Notes under the pieces: model-generated
Database searches by the model: none
What the model saw: the letters and a program-made list of their open reading frames with translations, nothing else
Told to the model about the DNA's origin: nothing
Part shown: positions 16,329 through 40,593 of the stretch, in pieces
How the letters are laid out: each line of letters starts with the position of its first letter
How positions within the stretch are numbered: the first letter of the stretch is position 1
Translations under genes and position numbers: made by a program
Assembly: GCA_036387335.1 (NCBI GenBank)
Contig: DASVTZ010000014.1
Location: 1-64,000 of the forward strand
DNA: 64,000 nt
Reading direction: 5' to 3'
Origin: Longimicrobium sp.
GTDB taxonomy: Bacteria > Gemmatimonadota > Gemmatimonadetes > Longimicrobiales > Longimicrobiaceae

Positions 16329-16496
16329 CATTCGGCGGCGTGAGAGAACGCTTTTCAGCCAAATAAAAACGTGCTATGTTTCTAAGTGTGCGGTACGCTC
16401 CGGCGTGCCGCGCGTCCGTACATCCCCTATCCGCCAGTCTCCTCCGAGCCGGTTCGCGCCCGCGTGCGGCTCTCCCACCCGCAGCAGCGACCCAGC

Positions 16497-18368
16497 ATGA
16501 AGCCCGTGGTCCGCAGCCCGCTCCTCCTCGCCCTCGTCCTTGCCGTGCAGGCCGGCTGCCAGAACCCCGCCGGCGGCGACAAGAAGCCCCCCGTGGTGCA
16601 GACGCCCTCCATCAGCGGGGCCGTCCTCACGGCCGGCGGCGTCGGCAGCCTCACGGGTGCCCACCTGGACCAGCTGCCTGCGAGCATCACGGTCGATGGC
16701 GCCGCGGTCACCTGGACGTCGCGCACCGCCACCGAAGCGCGCTTCGCCATGCCCGCCGCCCGCCCCTGCGAGGTCGACGGCCGCCCGATCGAGATACAGG
16801 CGGGCACGCTGAGCCACACGGGTGCCCTGAAAGTCGCCACCACGATCGACCTCCAGGTGGGCGAGAGCCGCGTGCTCACCCGCGAGCAGCTCGCCACCCT
16901 CTGCCTGCAGCTCCCCGCCGGCACTAACCGCTACGTCTTCACAGCGCTGAACCCGAGCCTCGTGTACAGCCCGGCGGCGGACACGCTCTTCACCGTGCAC
17001 GGCTGGACTGGCGCGGGCGGGTCCGCGGCGAGCGTCTCGCCCACGGTGTCACCCCGCCTGGCGGCGACGGCCACCGCGTCCCGCCTCGAGCAGCACGCCG
17101 CGCTACACACCCGCGAGTACCCGCGCCTGCGGAGCTCGGCCGGCCCCATCACCTACTCCGAAAGTCCGCCTTCGTTCGACCCGCGTTACGCCACCGCCAC
17201 CGCTGGCGACACGGTGATCTGGGCGGATCTCTGGAACGACCCCTACGGCTGCGACAAGCCGCGCGACCAGGTACCCACCTTCCCAGTCGTCGTCGCCGCG
17301 ACATCGGCTTCCGGGAAGACGGTGCTGGCCTTCGACGCCCGCAGCAAACACAGCGCCGGCTGGCGTTCCATCGAGACCCGCAATCGCCTCACCCGCGCCG
17401 CGGACATGATGGAGCGCTGGGCACTCCCCGCCGCCCGCGAGATCATGGGCTCCGACTTCCAGCCTCCGAAAGGTGCCGGAGGCAGGTGGTGGCACGTCTT
17501 CCGGAGCGACATCCCGGCCTGGACGTCTGATGGTCGAGTCGGTGCGCCCGTCTCGATCTGCCCCAACGCTTCGGAACTGATCGCGACCATCTCTCACGAC
17601 CTTCCACCGGAGCATGACTCGCAGATGGAATATCTCGCGGGTCTCCTGATCCACGAATATGGACACAGCGCGGATTACGTATATGAAGTTCGGCGCTGGG
17701 GCACTTTCGGTGAGCATTTTTCCAGTTGGGCCGCGCACGAGGCTTGGGCGCAGACCTTCCAGGAAACCGCGGCCAGGCTCGCCAGCAATCAGCCCACCGC
17801 CGCGCGATACAGCGGCCTCGTCACCGGGGTGCCGTACGCCGACTTTTACCTGACCGGGTATGGCGAGAGCCCCCTGCAGACGCCCTGGGGAATTCTGGCT
17901 GGCGACCGGGGGGGATTTTACGATCAGGGTACACGTTTTCTGATGTTCCTTCGCGAGCAGTGGGGGGATGCTACTCTCGGAAGCTCCAGGGAGCGTTACT
18001 ATGCTCGCGTGCTGGCGATCCCCCGATACGGTGTATCGGACATGACTGCCCTGGTCGGGATGGATGCTACGACGGCCCTCGATCGCTGGAGTTTGGCGGA
18101 GGCGATCGACGACATCGTGGACCCCGCAGTGGTGGCTGCACGCGGCCTCCCGCAGATCCAGACGTGGGTGCCGCAGGATAACGGGCCACTCTCGACCACG
18201 GCCATCTCCAAAACCGCCAACACCGCGCGCCGGCTGGTGGTGGGGCGCGGCAACTACGCAGCCGTCTACGCCTGGGACTACAATGCGGACGCAGGGAAGG
18301 GTGTCTCGCTCACGTTCGGAGGGTTCGGTTCGGCACCATTTATCGCCCGCATTACCCGGGTCAAGTAG
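16497..18368 (+). CDS. exported lipoprotein with gluzincin-like HEYGH motif
   Basis: A 623-residue protein with a lipoprotein-type signal (LLLALVLAVQAGC; the -3 position is not ideal). Residues about 35-120 look like an IPT/TIG-type beta domain. In the C-terminal half, HEYGH at residues 386-390 (LLIHEYGHSADYVYE) matches the zinc-binding HExxH of gluzincins, and a Glu in AAHEAWAQTFQE about 30 residues later could be the third ligand. It is therefore probably a zinc metallopeptidase of unassigned family at the cell surface. The frame opens at 16386, but the ATG at 16497 begins the signal peptide. A strong terminator follows. Confidence 0.7.
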   Translation: MKPVVRSPLLLALVLAVQAGCQNPAGGDKKPPVVQTPSISGAVLTAGGVGSLTGAHLDQLPASITVDGAAVTWTSRTATEARFAMPAARPCEVDGRPIEIQAGTLSHTGALKVATTIDLQVGESRVLTREQLATLCLQLPAGTNRYVFTALNPSLVYSPAADTLFTVHGWTGAGGSAASVSPTVSPRLAATATASRLEQHAALHTREYPRLRSSAGPITYSESPPSFDPRYATATAGDTVIWADLWNDPYGCDKPRDQVPTFPVVVAATSASGKTVLAFDARSKHSAGWRSIETRNRLTRAADMMERWALPAAREIMGSDFQPPKGAGGRWWHVFRSDIPAWTSDGRVGAPVSICPNASELIATISHDLPPEHDSQMEYLAGLLIHEYGHSADYVYEVRRWGTFGEHFSSWAAHEAWAQTFQETAARLASNQPTAARYSGLVTGVPYADFYLTGYGESPLQTPWGILAGDRGGFYDQGTRFLMFLREQWGDATLGSSRERYYARVLAIPRYGVSDMTALVGMDATTALDRWSLAEAIDDIVDPAVVAARGLPQIQTWVPQDNGPLSTTAISKTANTARRLVVGRGNYAAVYAWDYNADAGKGVSLTFGGFGSAPFIARITRVK

Positions 18369-18461: not shown

Positions 18462-18968
18462 CTATTCCGCTCCGGCGTTCCGCGTAGAATCATGAGCAAG
18501 TCGTGCCGCCTCAATACGGCGCCTGGCCTGAATGCGGACGAGGCGACGGATCGAGTCTGTCTGCACTTTCACAGACGGAGAACCGTGGGCGTTGGCTCGT
18601 TGTGCTTGCCTGGTGGAGCCGCCTCCCGCCAGCCGCGCTGCCTTCGTCTCTGCCGGATGCGAGGCCGCCCAATCCTCCAGCCATCGATGAAGGGCCGGCA
18701 TCACGGAATCGCGTGCATGTTTGTCTCGCGAGACGCGCAACACCGCTTGTTTGGTTCTCACGCTGACTTCGGGGACACTGATCAGGTTCTCCTCGTAGAG
18801 CATCTGGTCGATAGCAGCGGCTGCCAGGGCGGGAGCCAGGAGCGGTCGCTCGGCGCGCGCCGTGTCCTTGCCGCTCCACCCCCGGCTTACCTCTCGCGCC
18901 CGGCACCCGCCCTGACCCACTGCCAGAGCGGCGATCGCGGACACCATCAGCAAACCTCGCATCGTCAT
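18462..18968 (-). CDS. small lipoprotein, unknown function
   Basis: A 168-residue protein with an N-terminal signal (MTMRGLLMVSAIAALAVGQG then Cys at a possible lipobox). The mature part is highly charged and helical and ends in an Arg/Ala-rich tail. The Shine-Dalgarno GAGGAG overlaps the stop codon of the giant prepilin-like gene, and the ATG at 18968 is 12 bases after that stop, so the two are translationally linked. It may be an accessory factor for export or anchoring of that protein; no family is recognised. Confidence 0.65.
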   Translation of the reverse strand: MTMRGLLMVSAIAALAVGQGGCRAREVSRGWSGKDTARAERPLLAPALAAAAIDQMLYEENLISVPEVSVRTKQAVLRVSRDKHARDSVMPALHRWLEDWAASHPAETKAARLAGGGSTRQAQRANAHGSPSVKVQTDSIRRLVRIQARRRIEAARLAHDSTRNAGAE

Positions 18969-18980
18969 CAGGGGTGCTCC

Positions 18981-21900
18981 TCAGAGTGGTATTTGTGGCC
19001 CGCCGGGACCGCTTGACCCGATGCAGTCCGAGTAGCTGCGGCTACTCGGAATCGAATAGTACGCTGCGCCGACCCGGCCCCGGTCGTCCACCAGGTAGAG
19101 CGTTACTTCCTGCGACGCACACTGCTCCGGAGACAGCTCCAGCACCGTAGAGCGCGACTGGTAGCTTCCTCCTGGTCCATACGTGATGTCCAGGGGCTGC
19201 ACGTACACCTCCCAGAACACGTTCACGATTCGGCCGTCTACGCTCTCACCCGAGCCGGTCAGCCGGTGCGTCCCATCGATCACCTCTGCGGCGATGGCTC
19301 CCGTCGGGGTGGAGGGCGGCGGCACGAGCCGCTCGAAGCCCCTCGTGCAGGTGAAGAAGAGAGGGCCAGTTTCGTTGATGCAGTCGCTGCCTCTCCACTC
19401 GGAGCGGGTGTGGTCGTAGAAGCCGCTCTGCGAGGTGGTCTGGCCGTTCGCATCCAGTACGTAGAGGGTCACCCAGGCCTCATCGGGCACCCAGTGGGGG
19501 CCACCGTCGAAGGCGCCCGTTGCGCTGCCGAGGTTCGCGTTGAGCACGAGTGGGTGCTGCGCCAGATCAGGTGACTGGGGCCACCCTCCCGCGCTGCTCC
19601 CCTCGGTTGTGAGCACACGCCAGACTCCCCGCTGGACGCTGCCGGACGATTTCTGATCGTTGCTGAAGAAGTTGTAGGCGCTTGGGCCATTTCTGGAGTC
19701 GTACCTGTAGGGTGCGACCTGGTCGCCGTTCCCGCTGTAGGAGAACTTTCGCTCAAACTTGTCGTCCGTTTGCCAGAATTCGACCTGGAACTCGGCCCAG
19801 GCACGCACGATCGGTACGTCTCCCTGGGATTCGTCCAGCAGGACCTCCCAGCGTGCGTTTCCTGACTCCTTGGGGCACTGGTTGTCCCAGGGGACGTCCC
19901 AGCAAAAGTCCCTCGGATCGAACCACCACCCGCGGTAGCGCCACTTCAGCCGAGCGCGGGTCATCTTCAGTACCCTCACATTCTGGCAATTCTCCCTGCT
20001 CATCCGGCCGTCCTCGTCTACCACTCTCAGGCAGACGTGGAAGACCCCTGCCGTGTCATATGCGCGGCGGACGCTCGAAGTGCTCAACTCATCAGTCGCC
20101 ACACCGGTACTCCCGGGCACGAACCGGTTGCCGTCCCAGCGCATTCCGTCCACATCCCAACTCCAGATGTACTTCGTAATCGCGCGGCCGATTGGACTCG
20201 ACGAGTCTTTCCCGTCCAGGATAAACCACTTGCGCACGTACACAGAGCCTGGCGTGTTCCATTTGGCGAGGGGTGTCGCATCTGTGATTCGATTGCGAAA
20301 GCTGTCCTGCGCTTGATACATATCTGCATCCCCATCATAGACTCTCACCTTCGCGAGGAGCGCGGTGGCCCAAGCGGCTCTGAGTGAGGTCACGAACGTG
20401 TGGTTCTTCCTTGCCTCAACGATCGCGCATCTAGGATTGGGCGTTCCCGCCACCAGCGCCCCGTTTTCAGGGGTAACCGTGAGGCAGAGAGTTCGAGTGG
20501 CGTTGCTCTGATTGCTCGTCAGATAGTTGATCGTCTTAACCTCTCCCTCGATCCAGAGCATATCCGGAGGGGTGGGCGGCACACGCAGCGTCGGGTTCGC
20601 CAGTTGGAGACCAGCGGTGACGGTGAACGTCTGCGCGGCGGTGAGGCTCGCGGCCTGATCCACGGCGGTGACGGTCACCTGATTGGTCCAGAGGTGCTCG
20701 GCAGCCGCAACGACGGAAACCGCCTGCGTCACTCCCGCGGCGCCGAAGGGGGTGCCGATCTCCACGCACGACGCTGGGGATGGGGACGGGGAGACGACGC
20801 TGCCGGCGGCGGCCGATCCGGCGCTGACCACCGTGGTGAAGCAGTAGCTCACGGCCACGTTGCTCTGGCTGGTCAGGACGGCAGACCCGCTCCCGCTCTG
20901 GCCCGGGAGGAGGGTCTGCGACGGGAACGCGGAGAGGAGGGGCGCCGCGCGGATGATCCGCGGCGTGACCCGGAAGCCGCCGGACGCGATGAGCGATGCA
21001 TCACCCGTGTCCTCCACCCGGATCGCGAGGTCGGAGGGGACGCCGCCGTACGCGTTCGCAGGGATCCCGTAGGTGAACGACGCGGCGGCCGAGCCGTATG
21101 CCGGGATCGTCAGGCTCGCCGGGTCGGCGGGGTCGGGGACGGCGGCGGGGTTGGACGAGCTCACCGGGGCGGAGAACGTCCGCGGTGCGTTGGCGCAGTT
21201 CTCGATCGTGTAGGTGACGGTCGCGACCGTGCCGGGCGCCTGTGGTTGTGCGGGTACCCCGCTAGGTCCCGCGAGCGTCGGGGCGCACAGGTCGAGCGCC
21301 GTGGTCACCGCGAAGCTGGACGGCGTGCCGAGGGCCGCGTCGCTCGCCTGGAGCGTGGGGCGGCTGCGCGTGAGGTGGACGGAGCGGTCCTTCATGCGGT
21401 ACGGCAGGGAGACGCTTCGCATTTCGAACGGCGCAAACGACTCCGTCCGCGACGCGCCGGCAGGGAGCACGTCCGTGTCCCCGTCCGTCGCGAGCGTGAT
21501 ATCGCGCTGCGCGTTGGTGCAGTTCTGGAGCTGCCAGATCACGTTGAAGGCGGCGCCAGGTCGCTCGGTCCGGTCGGCGGGCGCGCCGACGACGCTGGGG
21601 GCGCAGACCTCGAGCTTCGTGCGCACGACGAAGTCGGCGATGTTGCTGGATGGCGGCACGTACTGCGGATCCACGTCCGCGACGAAGAGCCTGCCGCGGC
21701 TCTCGGTGCCGGCCAGCGAGGGGCGCTTGAGCCGATACGTCACCTGCACGCGGTGCGAGCCACCGCGCGGGATCGACACCGCCGCGCCCGTGCCCTGTGC
21801 GCTCACGACCTGGAGGTCGGCGGTGGCTTCAGCGCGGATGTTGAAGTCGCGTCGCGCGTTGGAGCTGTTGACCACGGACCATTCCGAGGTGAACTGCTCG

Positions 21901-23117
21901 TCCTGGCCGGCGCCGCGCGCGGCGGGTGCGGCGATCGACGGCATTCCCGGGACGAACCGGGCCGTGACGCGGAAGCACTGGCGCGCCGGCGGCAGCGTTC
22001 TGGCCTCGGCATCGGAGAACGACATGCAGGCGTCGCGAGACTCGAAGCCGTCCGTCGCGGGATCAAGGACGTATTCCAAGTCGGTCGTGCGGGGAACGCC
22101 GCGGGCATAGGGATGGCTCCCCAGCTCGGCGGAGGGGGCGCGGGAGAGCCCCGCCTGCTCGGTCGCCGCGAGCACCATCATCCGCCGCATGTTGGTGTGG
22201 CTCGTAGAGGTCCAGCGCACCGGGATTCCGTCTCCGGGCGTGACCGTCACATCCGCGGGATCGGAGAGCTCCAGCGGACCCAGCACCAGCTCCGTGGCGA
22301 CGCTGAAGAAGCCGTTCAGCGCAGGGCACGGGTCGTCGTTCGCTTCCAGTGGCAGGACCGACACCTGGCCGGCTTCGGCGTTGGGATCGAGCTGGAAGCT
22401 GGCGGTGACCGTCTGAGACCCGCCCGCGGGCACCGTCACGGTCGCGGGTCCCGTGGCCATCGGGATCACCGACGCGTTGCTGGAGGAGAATGCGAGTGAG
22501 AAGCTGCGGGAGCTCGTGCCCGGATTCGTCAGCGTGAACACGCCCGTGCCCGGCTGCCCCGGCCGCAGGTTCTGGTCAGCCGGGGACGCGAGGGTGGGTG
22601 TCGGGTCGCACACGGGAGCGGACGGCGGCGTGCTCACCGCAGTGTCCACGGGGGTGCTGGGCACTGGCGTGGTGATGGCGACCTCGGAGGCGCCGACGTT
22701 CTCCGTTGTGTTCGGATCGTCCTCGCCCGCCCAGCACTGGACGCGGTTGAGCGCGTTCGAGACATAGGGCGAGTAGTCAACCGAGCAGCGCTGCCCGGTC
22801 TTCACGTGCCGCACGCGCAGGTACGCGCGCCGGCCGCCGCCCTCGAGGCGACCCTCCTCCACCACCACGCCGGGAGAGCGGCGGAAGCCCTGGCCGTCGA
22901 GCTGCTCCAGGGTTCCGAGCGAGCCGGTCCGCTGGCGGAGGACCTGCTGCTGGTTGACGAAGTGCACCAGGTCCTGGCGCATCTCGGCTTCGGCGGCGCG
23001 GGCACGGTACAGGCCCGTGGCGGCGTAACCGGCGCCGGCCACGATACCGAGAACCACCAGCACCATCAGGATCTCCACTCCGGTGAATCCGCGGGTGTTG
23101 CGCGTTGTGGGTCGCAT
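18981..23117 (-). CDS. giant type IV prepilin-like surface protein with Ig/PKD-like domains
   Basis: A 1378-residue protein that begins like a type IV prepilin: a short basic leader, the cleavage point after Gly10 (NTRG/FTGVE), Glu at +5 and a hydrophobic helix (ILMVLVVLGIVAGAGYAA). The following 100 residues resemble a pilin head (MRQDLVHFVNQQQVLRQ and a CSVDYSP segment). The rest is a chain of about seven beta-rich repeats with the pattern of Ig-like fibre modules, each marked by CAP/GP openings and 'QNCTNAQR'-type strands, then a PKD-like domain at about residues 950-1050 (SWDVDG and AYDTAGVFHVCLRVVDEDG) and a Cys-containing C-terminus. Ordinary pilins are 120-200 residues. The frame opens at 23312, but the ATG at 23117 gives the classic leader. 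A PilT-type ATPase gene lies 2.3 kb away, divergent. Confidence 0.8.
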   Translation of the reverse strand: MRPTTRNTRGFTGVEILMVLVVLGIVAGAGYAATGLYRARAAEAEMRQDLVHFVNQQQVLRQRTGSLGTLEQLDGQGFRRSPGVVVEEGRLEGGGRRAYLRVRHVKTGQRCSVDYSPYVSNALNRVQCWAGEDDPNTTENVGASEVAITTPVPSTPVDTAVSTPPSAPVCDPTPTLASPADQNLRPGQPGTGVFTLTNPGTSSRSFSLAFSSSNASVIPMATGPATVTVPAGGSQTVTASFQLDPNAEAGQVSVLPLEANDDPCPALNGFFSVATELVLGPLELSDPADVTVTPGDGIPVRWTSTSHTNMRRMMVLAATEQAGLSRAPSAELGSHPYARGVPRTTDLEYVLDPATDGFESRDACMSFSDAEARTLPPARQCFRVTARFVPGMPSIAAPAARGAGQDEQFTSEWSVVNSSNARRDFNIRAEATADLQVVSAQGTGAAVSIPRGGSHRVQVTYRLKRPSLAGTESRGRLFVADVDPQYVPPSSNIADFVVRTKLEVCAPSVVGAPADRTERPGAAFNVIWQLQNCTNAQRDITLATDGDTDVLPAGASRTESFAPFEMRSVSLPYRMKDRSVHLTRSRPTLQASDAALGTPSSFAVTTALDLCAPTLAGPSGVPAQPQAPGTVATVTYTIENCANAPRTFSAPVSSSNPAAVPDPADPASLTIPAYGSAAASFTYGIPANAYGGVPSDLAIRVEDTGDASLIASGGFRVTPRIIRAAPLLSAFPSQTLLPGQSGSGSAVLTSQSNVAVSYCFTTVVSAGSAAAGSVVSPSPSPASCVEIGTPFGAAGVTQAVSVVAAAEHLWTNQVTVTAVDQAASLTAAQTFTVTAGLQLANPTLRVPPTPPDMLWIEGEVKTINYLTSNQSNATRTLCLTVTPENGALVAGTPNPRCAIVEARKNHTFVTSLRAAWATALLAKVRVYDGDADMYQAQDSFRNRITDATPLAKWNTPGSVYVRKWFILDGKDSSSPIGRAITKYIWSWDVDGMRWDGNRFVPGSTGVATDELSTSSVRRAYDTAGVFHVCLRVVDEDGRMSRENCQNVRVLKMTRARLKWRYRGWWFDPRDFCWDVPWDNQCPKESGNARWEVLLDESQGDVPIVRAWAEFQVEFWQTDDKFERKFSYSGNGDQVAPYRYDSRNGPSAYNFFSNDQKSSGSVQRGVWRVLTTEGSSAGGWPQSPDLAQHPLVLNANLGSATGAFDGGPHWVPDEAWVTLYVLDANGQTTSQSGFYDHTRSEWRGSDCINETGPLFFTCTRGFERLVPPPSTPTGAIAAEVIDGTHRLTGSGESVDGRIVNVFWEVYVQPLDITYGPGGSYQSRSTVLELSPEQCASQEVTLYLVDDRGRVGAAYYSIPSSRSYSDCIGSSGPGGPQIPL

Positions 23118-23134: not shown

Positions 23135-23162
23135 GGTATAGTTGCGTTTGCTGGTGCCGCAA
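23135..23162 (-). promoter_or_regulatory. possible sigma70 promoter for the prepilin-like gene
   Basis: On the minus strand TTGCGG, a 16-base spacer and TATACC lie just upstream of the ATG at 23117, giving a short leader. No Shine-Dalgarno is evident between them, so the call is tentative. Confidence 0.35.
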
Positions 23163-23170
23163 CTGTAAAT

Positions 23171-23192
23171 ACCCCGTTAAGCAAAACGGGGT
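23171..23192 (-). terminator. hairpin after the M23 peptidase gene
   Basis: An 8-bp stem ACCCCGTT / AACGGGGT with a six-base loop, followed on the minus strand by TATTTA. It lies between the M23 gene stop (23323) and the prepilin start, and could end the upstream operon. Confidence 0.45.
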
Positions 23193-23322: not shown

Positions 23323-24006
23323 TCAGAGGCGCAGGGGACCGTCTGGAGGGAGAAGGCGGATCGGATCGACGCTATGGTACCCGTCCGCGCGCCGAACGTA
23401 CGCCTCGTAGTGGAGATGCGGGCCGGTGGTGCGCCCGGTCCCCCCGACGCGGCCGATCAGCTGGCCGCGCCGCACGCGATCGCCCGGGCGCACGGAGAGG
23501 GCGGAGAGGTGGGCGTATCGCGTGAGAAAGGTGTCGCCGTGGCGGAGGTCCACGCCGATGCCGTAAGTGGGCGAGCGAAAGGTGGCGAGCACCACGCCGT
23601 CCGCCGTGGCGGAGACGGGCGCGCCATGCGGGGCCGCGATGTCCAGCCCCCAGTGCGGCAGGACGCGGCGCACCACCGGATGGTACCGGCGCGGCGCGTA
23701 GGCGCTGGTGATGGTTCCCGCGGCCAGCGGCGCCGCATCGGGGACAAAGACTCGCACCGAGTCCACACGGGCGGCGATGCGCGCCTCACGGCTGCGGAGC
23801 TCCTCGTAGCGCGCCAGGAGCGGACTTGGGCGTTGCGCGTTCGGCGGTAGTCCAACCCGCGCCTCCACCCGCGAGATGCGCCGTTCCAGGCTGTCCAGCC
23901 GCAGCGCCAGGCCCGCGTGGGTCGAGGGCGGTGCGGCACGCAGGAGACCCGCGCCGCACGCCGCCAACACGAGCGCACCCGCCAGCGCCGCACGTGCGGG
24001 GATCAT
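23323..24006 (-). CDS. M23-family peptidase (LytM type), lipoprotein
   Basis: A 227-residue protein with a lipobox (LVLAAC) near the N-terminus, a short coiled-coil region (LALRLDSLERRISRVEARV) and a C-terminal LytM domain. The zinc ligands are in HWGLDIAAPHG (His-x3-Asp) and HLHYE (HxH), so the peptidase site is complete. These enzymes cut peptidoglycan cross-links. Its ATG overlaps the stop of the upstream lipoprotein gene by four bases (ATGA), so both are made from one message. Confidence 0.9.
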   Translation of the reverse strand: MIPARAALAGALVLAACGAGLLRAAPPSTHAGLALRLDSLERRISRVEARVGLPPNAQRPSPLLARYEELRSREARIAARVDSVRVFVPDAAPLAAGTITSAYAPRRYHPVVRRVLPHWGLDIAAPHGAPVSATADGVVLATFRSPTYGIGVDLRHGDTFLTRYAHLSALSVRPGDRVRRGQLIGRVGGTGRTTGPHLHYEAYVRRADGYHSVDPIRLLPPDGPLRL

Positions 24007-25295
24007 GGGTCGAGCGGCGTGTTGGCCACGCGCGGCGTCGCGACGGGACGCGCGGGTGCGGTGGGGACCGTCGCCACCTCATCGATCGGCTGGAGCGGCG
24101 ACGCCGCGCCGGGGCCACTTCGGTTCTCGAGCACAACCTCCATCCGCGGCTCGCCGCCGTCATCCGAGTACAGGCGCACGCGCGGTCCGCGCACCCCGAG
24201 CTGGCGGGTGAGCGAAAGGATCTGCTCGGCGCCCACTTCCAGCTTCTCTACGCGCGTGGCGAAGAAGCGCCCGTCCGCCTGCCGCGCCACGCGGGACGCG
24301 TAGATCCGCTCCGCCTGCCGCTCGAGCAGCCAAAAACCCGTTCCCGCTGGCATGTCGGCGAGCGGGATGACGACGCCGTGGCCCTCGGGGAAGCGGTACG
24401 TGCCCGAGCGCGGGACGGGCGATGCGGCCAGCCACCCCAGCCGCGCACGGGCCAGCGACGAAAGGGTGCGGCCGTATCCCTCCGGGAAGAAGCACTCGCT
24501 CTCCCCCAGCCCCAGCGTGTGGAGGATCAGGCGCGTGGTCCCCATCACGTCCGGCTGCGCGCCGCGGGGGACGTGGACGGCCAGCACGTGGCCCGCACGC
24601 AGCCGGCGCCCGCCCGAGCGGAGATCCAGCTCCGGGTGCACGATGCGGCTGGCGAATGGCGTGTCCGACTCCACCGTCAGGATCACCAGGTCGATCTCCC
24701 CGTCGTCGTCGCGCGAGGTCGGGATGCCGTCTGGGCCGTCGTTGTCGTAGACGCTCAGGTCGAGCTGGCGCGCCCACGATTCGAGCGCCATCGACGCCAG
24801 GCGCTCCAGCTCGCGCGGCTGGCCCGCGGCGGCGCGCCACTGCGGCGCCACCAGCAGGGGGAGGGTGCGCGTGGTGAAGCGCATCGCCCCGCCCGACTCG
24901 CGCGTGAGCAGGTCGCGCACGGTGCCGCCCTCGTCGCTTCCCTCGCCAAAGAGGCGCGCGGCGAGGGTACGCTCGTCGAAGGTGGGGACGCGGTTGCCGA
25001 TGGAGATCGGGATCACCAGCGCGCCCAGCGGCCCCACGCCGGCGTAGCGCGCGCCGGGGAGCGGCTTCAGCCCGCCCTCGTTGACCAGGCCGACCGGGAG
25101 CGGGGGGCCGGCGGGGACGGGCTGGGCGGCGGCCGCGGGATACGCCCCCCCGGACCCGGGGTATCCATTAACGGAGCTTGCCGGCAGGAACGGACCGTCC
25201 GCCCGGCGCAGCCCGCCGGCCGAGGCGCAGGCGGAAAGGGCGAGGGCGATCGGCGCGATGCGGAGTGCGGTCTGGAGATGGGCGGGACGCGGCAT
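24003..25295 (-). CDS. lipoprotein resembling a degenerate M6 (immune inhibitor A) peptidase domain
   Basis: A 430-residue protein with a good lipobox (LALSAC). The central part follows the order of M6 metallopeptidase domains: a leader NRVPTFDERTLAARLFG, then GTVRDLLTRESGGAMRF, and an aspartate-rich segment DGPDGIPTSRDDDGEIDLVIL. At the place where M6 enzymes have HExxH this protein has LILHTLGLGESE, so the zinc site appears lost. It may bind rather than cut, or be something else of similar topology. The ATG at 25295 follows AGGAAG, and the stop overlaps the M23 start. It is divergent from the pilT-type gene. Confidence 0.6.
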   Translation of the reverse strand: MPRPAHLQTALRIAPIALALSACASAGGLRRADGPFLPASSVNGYPGSGGAYPAAAAQPVPAGPPLPVGLVNEGGLKPLPGARYAGVGPLGALVIPISIGNRVPTFDERTLAARLFGEGSDEGGTVRDLLTRESGGAMRFTTRTLPLLVAPQWRAAAGQPRELERLASMALESWARQLDLSVYDNDGPDGIPTSRDDDGEIDLVILTVESDTPFASRIVHPELDLRSGGRRLRAGHVLAVHVPRGAQPDVMGTTRLILHTLGLGESECFFPEGYGRTLSSLARARLGWLAASPVPRSGTYRFPEGHGVVIPLADMPAGTGFWLLERQAERIYASRVARQADGRFFATRVEKLEVGAEQILSLTRQLGVRGPRVRLYSDDGGEPRMEVVLENRSGPGAASPLQPIDEVATVPTAPARPVATPRVANTPLDP

Positions 25296-25408: not shown

Positions 25409-26497
25409 ATGGAACAGCCCCGCCTCAACCTCCTCCTCCGCACCCTCATCGACCACAAGGGCTCCGACCTCCACCTTTCTCCCGGAATCGAGCCGCGCAT
25501 CCGGGTGGACGGCGAGATGATCCCCCTGCAGATGACGGCGCTGACGGGCGACCACATCCAGGCCGTGGTGCAGGAGGTGATGGACGCACCGCTGCGCGAG
25601 CGCTGGCGCGACACGGAGGACCTCGACTTCGCCTATGAATCGCCGGACCTGGGGCGCTTTCGGGTGAACGTGTACACGGGCCGGCGCGGGGTCGGGGCCG
25701 TGCTCCGCGTGATCCCGGCCGTCATCCCGAGCGCGCAGGACCTCCGCCTTCCCCCGGCCATCACGGCGCTGGCGCGCATCCCCAACGGCTTGGTGCTGGT
25801 GACGGGCCCCACCGGGTCGGGCAAGTCGACCACGCTGGCCGCGCTGGTGGACCTCATCAACCGGCAGCGCGCGGGGCACATCATCACCATCGAAGACCCG
25901 GTCGAGTTCACGCACGAGAGCCGCACCTCCATCGTCACGCACCGCGAGGTGGGGCGTGACGTCCCCTCCTTTCCACGCGCGCTGCGGGCGGCGCTCCGCG
26001 AGGACCCGGACGTGGTGGTGGTGGGCGAGATCCGCGACGTGGAGACGATGCAGCTCGCCCTTTCCGCCGCGGAGACGGGGCACCTGGTATTCGGGACGCT
26101 GCACACCAGCAGCGCCACCAAGACGGCCAACCGCGTGGTCGACATGATGCCACCCGAGCGGCAGCAGCAGGTGCGCACCCAGTTCGCGGACGTGCTGCGC
26201 GCCATCGTCACGCAGCGCCTGGTGAGGAAGCGCGGCGGCGGCCGGCTGGGCGCCTACGAGATCCTCCTCAACACCACGCCCGTGCAGAACAACATCAAGG
26301 AGAACAAGCCATCGCTCATCGAGGGCGCGATGAACGACAGGGCCAGCGGAATGCAGACCCTGGAGCGCGCGCTTGCCCTGATGGTGGTGCAGGGGTGGGT
26401 GGAGGAGGACGAGGCGATGGCCGCCGCCAACAGCCCCGAGAGCCTGCGCACCGAGATCGGCTCCCTGCGCGTTCCAGACCGAGCCCGGCCCTGGTGA
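25409..26497 (+). CDS. pilT: PilT/PilU-type pilus retraction ATPase
   Basis: A 362-residue hexameric secretion-family ATPase. It has the N-terminal PilT domain (DLHLSPGIEPRIRVDG), Walker A GPTGSGKST at residues 133-141, the Asp box (IITIEDPVEF), Walker B (DPDVVVVGEIRD) and the His box (TGHLVFGTLHT). PilT retracts type IV pili by disassembling the fibre. The C-terminus lacks the usual AIRNLIRE motif; it has IKENKPSLIEGAMNDRA instead, which is typical of PilT/PilU relatives. The ATG at 25409 is the start of homology. No pilB, pilC or pilM-Q genes are in the window, so the pilus machinery is elsewhere. Confidence 0.88.
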   Translation: MEQPRLNLLLRTLIDHKGSDLHLSPGIEPRIRVDGEMIPLQMTALTGDHIQAVVQEVMDAPLRERWRDTEDLDFAYESPDLGRFRVNVYTGRRGVGAVLRVIPAVIPSAQDLRLPPAITALARIPNGLVLVTGPTGSGKSTTLAALVDLINRQRAGHIITIEDPVEFTHESRTSIVTHREVGRDVPSFPRALRAALREDPDVVVVGEIRDVETMQLALSAAETGHLVFGTLHTSSATKTANRVVDMMPPERQQQVRTQFADVLRAIVTQRLVRKRGGGRLGAYEILLNTTPVQNNIKENKPSLIEGAMNDRASGMQTLERALALMVVQGWVEEDEAMAAANSPESLRTEIGSLRVPDRARPW

Positions 26498-37993: not shown

Positions 37994-39256
37994 CTACCGT
38001 TCGTTGTGCGCTGGCGGGCGGTCGCCGTTGCCCGCGACTCCGAGGCCCCCGGAGTCGGTGACGAACGCCGCCTCGGGCTTGCGCTCCAGAAGGCCGATGC
38101 GGGCGCTCAGGTCGCGCAGGCGGTCGCTGGCGTCGCGGATCTGCTGGACGGAGCGGGCGAGCTCGGGCTGGCCGTCGGCGGCGCCGGAGGCTTCCATCAG
38201 GTGCACGGTTCCGGCGACGACGGCGAGCGGGTTGTTGAGCTCGTGCCGCACCGCGCGGATCAGCGCCGCCACGGGGACGGTGGACGGCTCGCGCTGCACC
38301 TCCTCCGTCTCGGCCAGCAGGGCAGCGAGCACACCGGGCTCGGCGGCGTCGGGAAAGGTGTCCAGGCGCAGGCGCTTGATGCGGCCACCCGCTACCGTCG
38401 CCGAGATCTGGAGCCGCGAGACGCCGCCGGGGGAGGCCAGGGCGCGCACAACGCGGTCGCGGTCGCCGGCGGCTACCTGCTGCGCCCAGCTTTCCACGGT
38501 CGCGCCCCACTCCTCGCCGGGGAGGCCTGCCAGCGTCTCGACGCCGGCGCCCCAGTGGATGCGGCCGGTCGCCAGCTCGACGCGGAGGAGGGCGAGCCCG
38601 CTGCCCGCAGCGACGGCGTCGTAGGTGCGGCGCCAGGCGGCGGTCTCGCGGTCGCGGCGCCAGGCGTCCACGGGAACACGGCGGGCGCGCGCCTCCGCGA
38701 AGGCGAGCGCGCCGGCCAGCGCGGAGCCCGCGAACTCCGTCACCAGGGCGAGCGTGGCGCGGTCGTCTTCGCTGAAGGGACGCGCGCCGGCCGGGCGGAG
38801 CACGAGCAGCACGCCCACGGCGCCCGAGGGGGCGGGGAGCGCCGCCGCCAGGGCGGGACCGGCGCCCAGCTCCTGCTCGCCCGGGTAGGCGTGCGGCTCC
38901 TGCGACAGGTCCGCCGACTCCAGCATCATCCCGGAGCGCAGCGCCGTGCCGCAGAAGCTTTCTTCGCTGGGGAGGAGCTCGCCTTCGAAGGAGGCGAGGA
39001 AGCCCGAGCCGACGCGGAATGCCAGCAGTCCACCGGGCTCGGCGGTCACCGTGGTGGCGGATGCGTGGAGGAGCACGCCGATTTCGTCCGCGAAGGTGCG
39101 GAGGAGCCGGGCGAGCTCAGCAGGGCGTGCGACGCACTCCGAGATTCGGTGGAGGACCGCCAGGACGCGCTCCGATGGAGCGCCCGCGGGTATGGAGAAC
39201 GCATCCGTCCCCGCGGGGACGGGGGTGGATGCCGCTCCCCGGGTGGGGTTGGGCAT
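37994..39256 (-). CDS. GAF/PAS histidine-kinase-like protein lacking the ATPase domain
   Basis: A 420-residue protein. The N-terminal half is a GAF domain (ISECVARPAELARLL, EESFCGTALRSG, GAVGVLLVLRPAGARPFSEDD). A PAS-like region follows (LALLRVELATGRIHWGAGVE). The C-terminal part has a HisKA-type H-box, ALIRAVRHELNNPLAVVAGT, and its helical hairpin. The protein ends about 70 residues later, so the HATPase_c domain is missing; it could take phosphate from another kinase or act through heterodimers. It is 115 bases downstream of the HD-GYP response-regulator gene on the same strand, and the two probably work together. The ATG at 39256 is favoured over a GTG at 39310. Confidence 0.75.
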   Translation of the reverse strand: MPNPTRGAASTPVPAGTDAFSIPAGAPSERVLAVLHRISECVARPAELARLLRTFADEIGVLLHASATTVTAEPGGLLAFRVGSGFLASFEGELLPSEESFCGTALRSGMMLESADLSQEPHAYPGEQELGAGPALAAALPAPSGAVGVLLVLRPAGARPFSEDDRATLALVTEFAGSALAGALAFAEARARRVPVDAWRRDRETAAWRRTYDAVAAGSGLALLRVELATGRIHWGAGVETLAGLPGEEWGATVESWAQQVAAGDRDRVVRALASPGGVSRLQISATVAGGRIKRLRLDTFPDAAEPGVLAALLAETEEVQREPSTVPVAALIRAVRHELNNPLAVVAGTVHLMEASGAADGQPELARSVQQIRDASDRLRDLSARIGLLERKPEAAFVTDSGGLGVAGNGDRPPAHNER

Positions 39257-39371
39257 GATTTCGCGGTGTTCACGTTCGGCGGCTGGCCTATCTCCCGGAG
39301 GGGGAGACACCCGGCTCTGCGACCCCGCCTCGCGGCGGGTGAGCTATTGTCGTGTGAAACCTATGTGCAAA

Positions 39372-40490
39372 CTATAGGCTCGCCGCCCCGGATCGCGCAA
39401 GCTTTACGTGTGCGCCCACCCTTTCCAGCAGCACGCGGACGTATCGCGTCTCCGCCGGCGCGGGGAGCCCGGCGTCCAGCGCGGAGCGGAATGCGGCCAC
39501 CACGTCGGGGTCGAACTGGCTGCCGGAGCAGCGCTCCAGCTCGTCGCGCGCCTCCTCCGTAGCCCGCGCGCCGCGGTACGGGCGGGTGGTGACCATCGCG
39601 TCGAAGGAGTCGACCACGGCCAGCACGCGCCCCGCCAACGAGATCTCCGAGCCCGCCAGCCCGAACGGGTATCCGCGCCCGTCCCAGCGCTCGTGGTGGT
39701 GCAGCACGCCCGGCGCTGCGGAGCGGAGGAAGGCGCTGCGCTCCACGATGGCGGCCCCGATCAGCGGATGGCGCCGCATCACCGACGTCTCCTCCTCCGT
39801 CAGCACGCCCGGCTTGCGCAGGATGTGGTCCGGCACGCCGATCTTGCCGATGTCGTGCAGGAGCCCGCAGACCACCAGGTCGCGCAGCTCGTCCTCGCCC
39901 AGCCCCAGCGCGGAGCCGGCGGCCACGGCGTAGACGGTGACGCGCTCCAGGTGGCCGCCCGTGTACGCATCGCGCGCCTCCACCGCGTTGGCGATGGTGA
40001 GGAGGCCGTCCAGGAAGAGGTTCTCCAGCTGCTGCGCCTGCTCGGCGACGCGTGCCTCCAGGCCGCGCTGGTAGGCGCGGTTCTCCAGCAGCAGGCGCCG
40101 GTGCTCCAGCGCGCGGCGGGCGGAGAGGACCACCTCGTCCACGTTGAACGGCTTCAGCAGGTAGTCGTCCGCCTGCAGGCGCAGCGCTTCGACGGCCTGC
40201 TCCATCGTCCCCGCGCCGGTGAGGAGGAGGAAGGCGGCGGTGTCGTCCAGCGCCTTGACGCGGCGGAGGAGCTCCAGGCCGTCCATCTCCGGCATCATCA
40301 GGTCGGCCAGGACGATGTCCGCGCCTTCCGCGATGAAGTGCTCCAGCGCCACGCGGCCGTTCTCGGCGGTGGAGATGACGAAGTCGCCGCCCGCGAAAAT
40401 GTCGGCGAGGACGCGGCGGATGCCGGGCTCGTCGTCCACGATCAGCAGACGGGGCGGGCCGGCCGGCGGGGGAAACAGCTCCAGCGGCAT
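39372..40490 (-). CDS. response regulator with HD-GYP output domain
   Basis: A 372-residue RpfG-type response regulator. The receiver (residues about 12-130) has LLIVDDEPGIRRVL, the phosphorylated Asp in IVLADLMMPEMDG, the Thr in LLLTGAG and the Lys in YLLKPFN. A linker helix leads into the HD-GYP domain: GGHLERVTVYA, LLHDIGKIGVPDHIL, HHERWDGRGYPFGL and SFDAMVTTRPYRGA. It degrades cyclic di-GMP when phosphorylated. The ATG at 40490 gives a short Pro-rich leader before the receiver. It is followed by the GAF/HisKA-like gene. Confidence 0.93.
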   Translation of the reverse strand: MPLELFPPPAGPPRLLIVDDEPGIRRVLADIFAGGDFVISTAENGRVALEHFIAEGADIVLADLMMPEMDGLELLRRVKALDDTAAFLLLTGAGTMEQAVEALRLQADDYLLKPFNVDEVVLSARRALEHRRLLLENRAYQRGLEARVAEQAQQLENLFLDGLLTIANAVEARDAYTGGHLERVTVYAVAAGSALGLGEDELRDLVVCGLLHDIGKIGVPDHILRKPGVLTEEETSVMRRHPLIGAAIVERSAFLRSAAPGVLHHHERWDGRGYPFGLAGSEISLAGRVLAVVDSFDAMVTTRPYRGARATEEARDELERCSGSQFDPDVVAAFRSALDAGLPAPAETRYVRVLLERVGAHVKLARSGAASL

Positions 40491-40593
40491 GTCTTGAAGG
40501 AGCGGGGGAGAGGGGGGTGCGCTGGCGAATGTAGCACACGCGCCAGCGCCCACCAAGTGTCTTCGCGCGGGGCGTGCGGCGGCCCCGCGCTCG

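Follow-up and report, generated by a model that had tools for sequence, protein, structure and literature searches.

What is a protein of 1378 residues that begins like a type IV prepilin and continues as a long chain of beta domains? Such a protein is encoded in the 64-kb stretch of Longimicrobium DNA analysed here (the window). A reading made from the letters alone, hereafter the sequence-only reading, had suggested that it could be a tip adhesin or minor pilin projecting a long fibre, or a fusion displaying a surface receptor, and had ranked it as the best candidate in the window for an undescribed system. We examined the frame, the domains, the relatives and the neighbours of this gene; the features are collected in Table 1.

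Table 1. Coordinates of the giant prepilin gene, its domains and its neighbours in the window
Feature	Position	Strand	Basis
Giant modular prepilin gene, 1378 aa	18981..23117, stop included	minus	ORF; eight homologous genes; dN/dS 0.21
Prepilin leader, residues 1-10, Gly last	23088..23117	minus	residue 11 aligns to mature residue 1 of solved pilins
Alpha-1 helix with Glu at mature position 5, residues 11-64	22926..23087	minus	model helix 13-64; conserved
Four-stranded pilin beta sheet, residues 84-130, invariant Cys 111 and Cys 128	22728..22868	minus	alignment; model
Disordered Pro/Thr-rich linker, residues 131-172	22602..22727	minus	pLDDT <50 over 131-168; least conserved part
D1-D7, seven related Ig-like modules, residues 173-948	20274..22601	minus	model; Foldseek; motif; FixG_C
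PKD-like domain, residues 949-1050	19968..20273	minus	PKD_4 E 6.8e-4, under Pfam cut-off; model
CTD, conserved end domain, residues 1051-1262 (~210 residues)	19332..19967	minus	dN/dS 0.11; 53-65% identity in distant homologues; many invariant Trp/Cys/Arg/Asp
D8, last beta module, residues 1263-1378	18984..19331	minus	model
Small lipoprotein-like gene, 168 aa	18462..18968	minus	Cys past hydrophobic stretch invariant in all homologues
M23 (LytM-type) peptidase	23323..24006	minus	PF01551 E 7e-30; HxxxD and HxH kept; at 8 homologous loci
M6-peptidase-like, lipoprotein-like protein	24003..25295	minus	profile finds true M6 peptidases; without HEXXH
PilT-family ATPase, cassette clade	25409..26497	plus, divergent from M6-like gene	TIGR01420 423 bits; clade support 100/99
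Convergent lipoprotein-like protein	16386..18368	plus	IHEY[GA]H zincin motif; no Pfam family

Reading frame and start of the giant prepilin gene

In the ORF listing of the window, the gene opens with an ATG at 23117 and closes with a stop at 18981. The sequence-only reading had given its extent as 18462-23117 without stating the strand; the giant prepilin does lie there, but the span holds two minus-strand genes, one of them the 168-aa lipoprotein-like gene. When the gene was compared with its relative at locus L044 (88%), the changes at the three codon positions numbered 107, 83 and 287, third positions thus accounting for 287 of 477, and dN/dS was 0.21 for the whole gene and 0.23 for residues 1-64. 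The third-position excess and these ratios show that this is no chance ORF and that both frame and leader are genuine. Because residues 1-64 are conserved at the codon level and all nine family members have a prepilin leader, translation beginning past the hydrophobic helix, which the sequence-only reading had named as the result that would speak against it, is excluded. Plus-strand ORFs of up to 699 aa also lie across this span; they were ruled out, as the substitutions fit the minus-strand frame.

No strong Shine-Dalgarno sequence precedes the ATG in the window; two homologues carry a purine-rich GGA sequence at this place. Upstream of the pilin, on the minus strand at 23140-23180, lies an element (GGGGTAT..GCAAACG..ATACCTCC) that is partly conserved in L044 and L042, occurs as a single copy in the genome and is perhaps the pilin promoter region. 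The pilin is also preceded by a hairpin-like repeat (ACCCCGTT..AACGGGGT), which matched no Rfam family and is only partly kept in the closest relative. Elsewhere in the window, a c-di-GMP-I riboswitch (Rfam RF01051, 41.1 bits, over the gathering threshold) was found on the minus strand at 39275-39355, between an HD-type response-regulator-like ORF (39372-40556, minus) and a sensor/kinase-like ORF (37994-39310, minus).

The N terminus is a prepilin leader followed by a pilin module

The leader reads MRPTTRNTRG followed by FTGVEILMVLVVLGIVAGAGY, the mature part beginning FTGVE with Phe at +1 and Glu at +5. It has the classic form of a prepilin leader, although both Pfam N_methyl and NCBIfam IV_pilin_GFxxxE matched just under their cut-offs. 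A pilin-module profile made from nine sequences matched pilins of solved structure, namely 'geopilin domain 1' of Geobacter (2.6e-10) and Thermus-type PilA (5.2e-8), as well as further PilA chains and GspG. In the alignment with solved pilins, query residue 11 coincides with residue 1 of the mature chains, and the cut is therefore predicted after Gly10. Over about 110 residues, the module also resembles the 125-137 aa PilA-like pilins of the same order. This alignment, together with the codon conservation of the leader, bears out the prepilin-like start that had been read from the letters alone.

An Ig-like stalk carries a conserved end domain

We modelled the N-terminal 900 residues with AlphaFold2 using nine sequences (mean pLDDT 79). 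The model consists of a helix to residue 64, a four-strand head to about residue 130, a disordered linker and then, up to residue 900, Ig-like beta domains one after another. Modules D1-D7 share the motif PG...N.SNA.R, and Pfam FixG_C, which has an Ig-like fold, matches all nine family members. The chain of Ig/PKD-like modules that the sequence-only reading had described was thus reproduced by the model and the FixG_C matches, with PKD_4 contributing a match below its cut-off. Foldseek returned only generic tandem beta-sandwiches or Ig/FN3 arrays (axonemal Ig arrays, titin, an RTX-adhesin extender, complement and GhpA of Aureispira); their TM-scores were low, and we rejected them as kin.

The CTD matched no Pfam family and no PDB relative, and it is poorly modelled (pLDDT mostly 30-50). 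Among 395 genomes of the phylum, it was not found outside one Gemmatimonadota family (8 genome hits, 2 weak). A search of a genome contig collection with the whole protein gave no match, and a search of the same collection with the CTD alignment gave matches in the MAGs AVDCRST_MAG68 and RYN_364, both Gemmatimonadetes.

Taken together, the protein combines a class III leader with Gly-1, a hydrophobic helix and Glu5 (the latter in eight of nine members), a normal pilin fold seen both in the matches to solved pilins and in the modelled helix and four-strand sheet, and non-pilus Ig/PKD modules beyond a disordered linker. These features place it among the modular type IV pilins, a category already described.

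The pilin module and the CTD are conserved while the stalk varies

Of 21 genomes from a single Gemmatimonadota family, 8 encode giant pilins, nine in all, with two copies in G006. All nine start with a prepilin leader, and L039 has Gln in place of Glu5. Relative to L044, dN/dS is lowest in the pilin module (0.12) and in the CTD, and the linker and stalk are the least constrained. The more distant homologues (L039-L041, L046 and L047) are 53-61% identical to the window protein in the CTD, 24-39% in D1-D4 and 31-55% in D5-D7. Stalk length varies, since L040 and L041 have two or three Ig modules fewer. It also looks as if the distal part can be exchanged, because the G004 giant pilin keeps the pilin module (82% identical to that of the window) while its later modules diverge (19-57%). 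A 2830-aa frame in G015:C75 (L043) was rejected as a giant pilin, as it overlaps a secretion ATPase.

The giant pilin travels with a small set of neighbours

That the giant pilin is part of a conserved cassette had been overlooked in the sequence-only reading, which had mentioned a small lipoprotein downstream and a PilT-type gene nearby. By tBLASTn of the neighbours and gene calls, we recovered a recurrent gene order of pilT (divergent), M6-like, M23, giant pilin and lipoprotein. The lipoprotein-like gene is indeed present; it starts 12 nt downstream of the pilin in the window, and the two genes overlap in L039 and L047. In G001, a second small-lipoprotein-like fragment (44% over 43 aa; L047 5-133) follows the cassette about 7 kb further downstream. 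The M6-like gene overlaps the start of the M23 gene by ATGA in the window. Its profile recovers ordinary M6 peptidases with HELGH (Pfam PF05547); the HEXXH zinc-binding motif is absent from the aligned cassette homologues, and the Pfam M6 model matched none of the seven cassette members. Full-length M6-like genes are restricted to genomes with a giant pilin (profile search; G005 from tBLASTn of the neighbours).

A HEY[GA]H protein joins the cassette at five loci (the window, L039, L044, L045 and L046), even where the other flanks differ; the copies beside the four other cassettes are 50-89% identical to that of the window. At the orthologous site in G004 (L122, G004:C280, 3867-5339), a sigma-factor gene and an M23 gene stand about 97 bp apart. 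This site is without the giant pilin, the lipoprotein and the HEYGH protein, and the G004 giant pilin is found close to a DUF5916 gene on a different contig (L042). The arrangement reflects relocation, loss or a MAG artefact.

The cassette PilT belongs to a clade of its own

The nearby PilT-type gene was confirmed (423 bits for TIGR01420 against a cut-off of 319.1), with the Walker A motif, catalytic Glu and His box present; the cassette copies of L039 and L047 fall slightly under this cut-off. It is one of four PilT-family genes over the cut-off in this genome. We placed 51 PilTs from the 13 genomes searched in a tree, where those of giant-pilin loci or genomes, nine in number, form one clade (support 100/99). 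Seven of them sit in the cassette. The other two are G014_C326, where the contig ends past the M6-like gene, and G004_C280, where the M6-like and M23 genes are present and the pilin is elsewhere; because these two rows were unlabelled, a label test on the tree counted three changes. The clade has no member in the giant-pilin-free genomes G002, G003, G008 and G016, and G017 is without a full PilT. Shared ancestry may lie behind part of this co-occurrence. In G015, the cassette pilT is split over two frames (L041 4041-5549), by a frameshift or a sequencing error.

A minor pilin with a long reach is the favoured reading

The cassette holds no PilB, PilC, PilD, secretin or minor-pilin partner. The genome encodes the prepilin peptidase PilD, several extension-type ATPases and six secretins, and also has T2SS-like clusters with pseudopilins. 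Since the extension ATPase, platform, peptidase and secretin are missing from the cassette and the genome supplies extension-type ATPases, the peptidase and secretins, we favour, with a probability of roughly 0.6, a modular type IV minor pilin that displays a long Ig stalk and a binding head and is retracted by a dedicated PilT. The minor pilin projecting a long fibre of the sequence-only reading is the best-supported account.

We infer the following steps. The leader would be removed by the cell's prepilin peptidase, and the protein would be built into a type IVa pilus by its alpha-1 helix and its small pilin head, most probably at the tip or close to it. Seven Ig-like modules and the PKD domain would make up an extended stalk whose length we put at very roughly 30-40 nm (about 4 nm per module), pushing the CTD outward as a putative binding head; against this role of the CTD stand its low pLDDT and its lack of a known binding fold. 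Extension must rely on the housekeeping pilus machine, given what the cassette lacks, and the divergent PilT paralogue probably drives retraction of pili bearing the giant pilin, although its position next door is no proof of such a role. The M23 enzyme may make room in the peptidoglycan for so bulky a protein to pass, and both lipoproteins may serve as envelope partners. More tentatively, the giant pilin, private PilT, pseudo-M6 lipoprotein, wall hydrolase and small lipoprotein could make up a five-gene accessory unit, a retractable arm of long reach that connects to the general type IV pilus machine; strains would exchange its distal part and retain the pilin module and PilT.

Foremost among the rivals is an envelope tether or periplasmic scaffold, in which the helix keeps the processed protein in the inner membrane, the Ig chain passes through a wall gap made by M23 and the CTD meets outer-membrane lipoproteins. 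The constant neighbours, a cell-wall enzyme and two partners of lipoprotein type, and a cassette free of other pilus structural genes would suit such a tether; a plain anchor, however, would not need the pilin head and Glu5 that are kept, the constancy of the PilT clade suggests filament dynamics, and the estimated chain length exceeds the periplasm. We consider it doubtful.

Within the minor-pilin reading, the giant pilin is probably at the pilus tip. In tip complexes of minor pilins, the capping subunit is one without Glu5 (PMC10191384), and modular pilins are predicted to be tip-exposed, with a flexible linker that would permit shaft positions (PMC8179133); both views, and the Gln5 homologue L039, favour the tip. 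A protein distributed along the shaft, giving bristles instead of a single tip arm, is also allowed by the Glu5 of eight members and by such a linker, but the Gln5 homologue and the large size of the protein speak against it, which makes it unlikely. A tip subunit of a type II secretion pseudopilus, pushing substrate, would be in keeping with the T2SS-like clusters of the genome and a weak match of the GspH model to the leader; type II secretion is without PilT, whereas the cassette has one, and the best matches of the module are PilA-type pilins, so that this reading has very little in its favour. Least credible is a secreted or membrane Ig protein that truly begins past the helix, for the missing strong Shine-Dalgarno and the sub-cut-off N_methyl match that would fit it are set against the codon-level conservation of residues 1-64 and the leaders of all homologues, two of them with GGA ahead of the ATG.

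Relation to known modular pilins

Modular pilins comprise more than 1,200 members in 264 architectures, as counted in a 2021 survey limited to InterPro-defined domains, in which the most extreme multi-domain case was an 860-residue protein of Candidatus Falkowbacteria (PMC8179133). This pilin likewise carries many repeated modules; it differs in being shorter, in having IPR013211 repeats and in that no cassette was reported for it in the survey (PMC8179133). PilB (vWA) and PilC (lectin) of Streptococcus sanguinis share with the giant pilin a class III leader, a small pilin module, a short linker and grafted functional modules (PMC8179133). Compared with S. sanguinis PilB (~50 kDa), the giant pilin has 1378 residues, seven Ig modules, a PKD domain, a new CTD, a diderm host with secretins and its own PilT cassette. 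CofB of ETEC and GspK also bear extra domains on a pilin module and have a proposed tip position (PMC8179133), but they are far smaller and carry other extra domains. The tip adhesin PilY1/PilC1 is, like the giant pilin as read here, a large modular protein on type IVa pili, but it is not a pilin, and its beta-propeller (PF05567) is absent from the giant pilin; a PF05567 search of six genomes gave no match, with the search controls likewise silent.

The giant pilin is thus a longer variant of the modular pilins with a new end domain, and its distinctive part is the dedicated cassette. The suggestion of an undescribed system is partly borne out: the protein falls in a known category, but in the papers searched we found no description of the five-gene cassette and its separate PilT clade. 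In the literature searched, no paper dealt with giant pilins or a giant-pilin cassette, and the pili of Gemmatimonadota were almost unstudied. Collectively, these findings extend modular pilins to nearly 1400 residues and tie one pilin, unusually, to its own clade of retraction ATPases. They offer a testable case for the presence of several PilT paralogues in many genomes, in which a motor may serve a particular cargo pilin and not a separate pilus.
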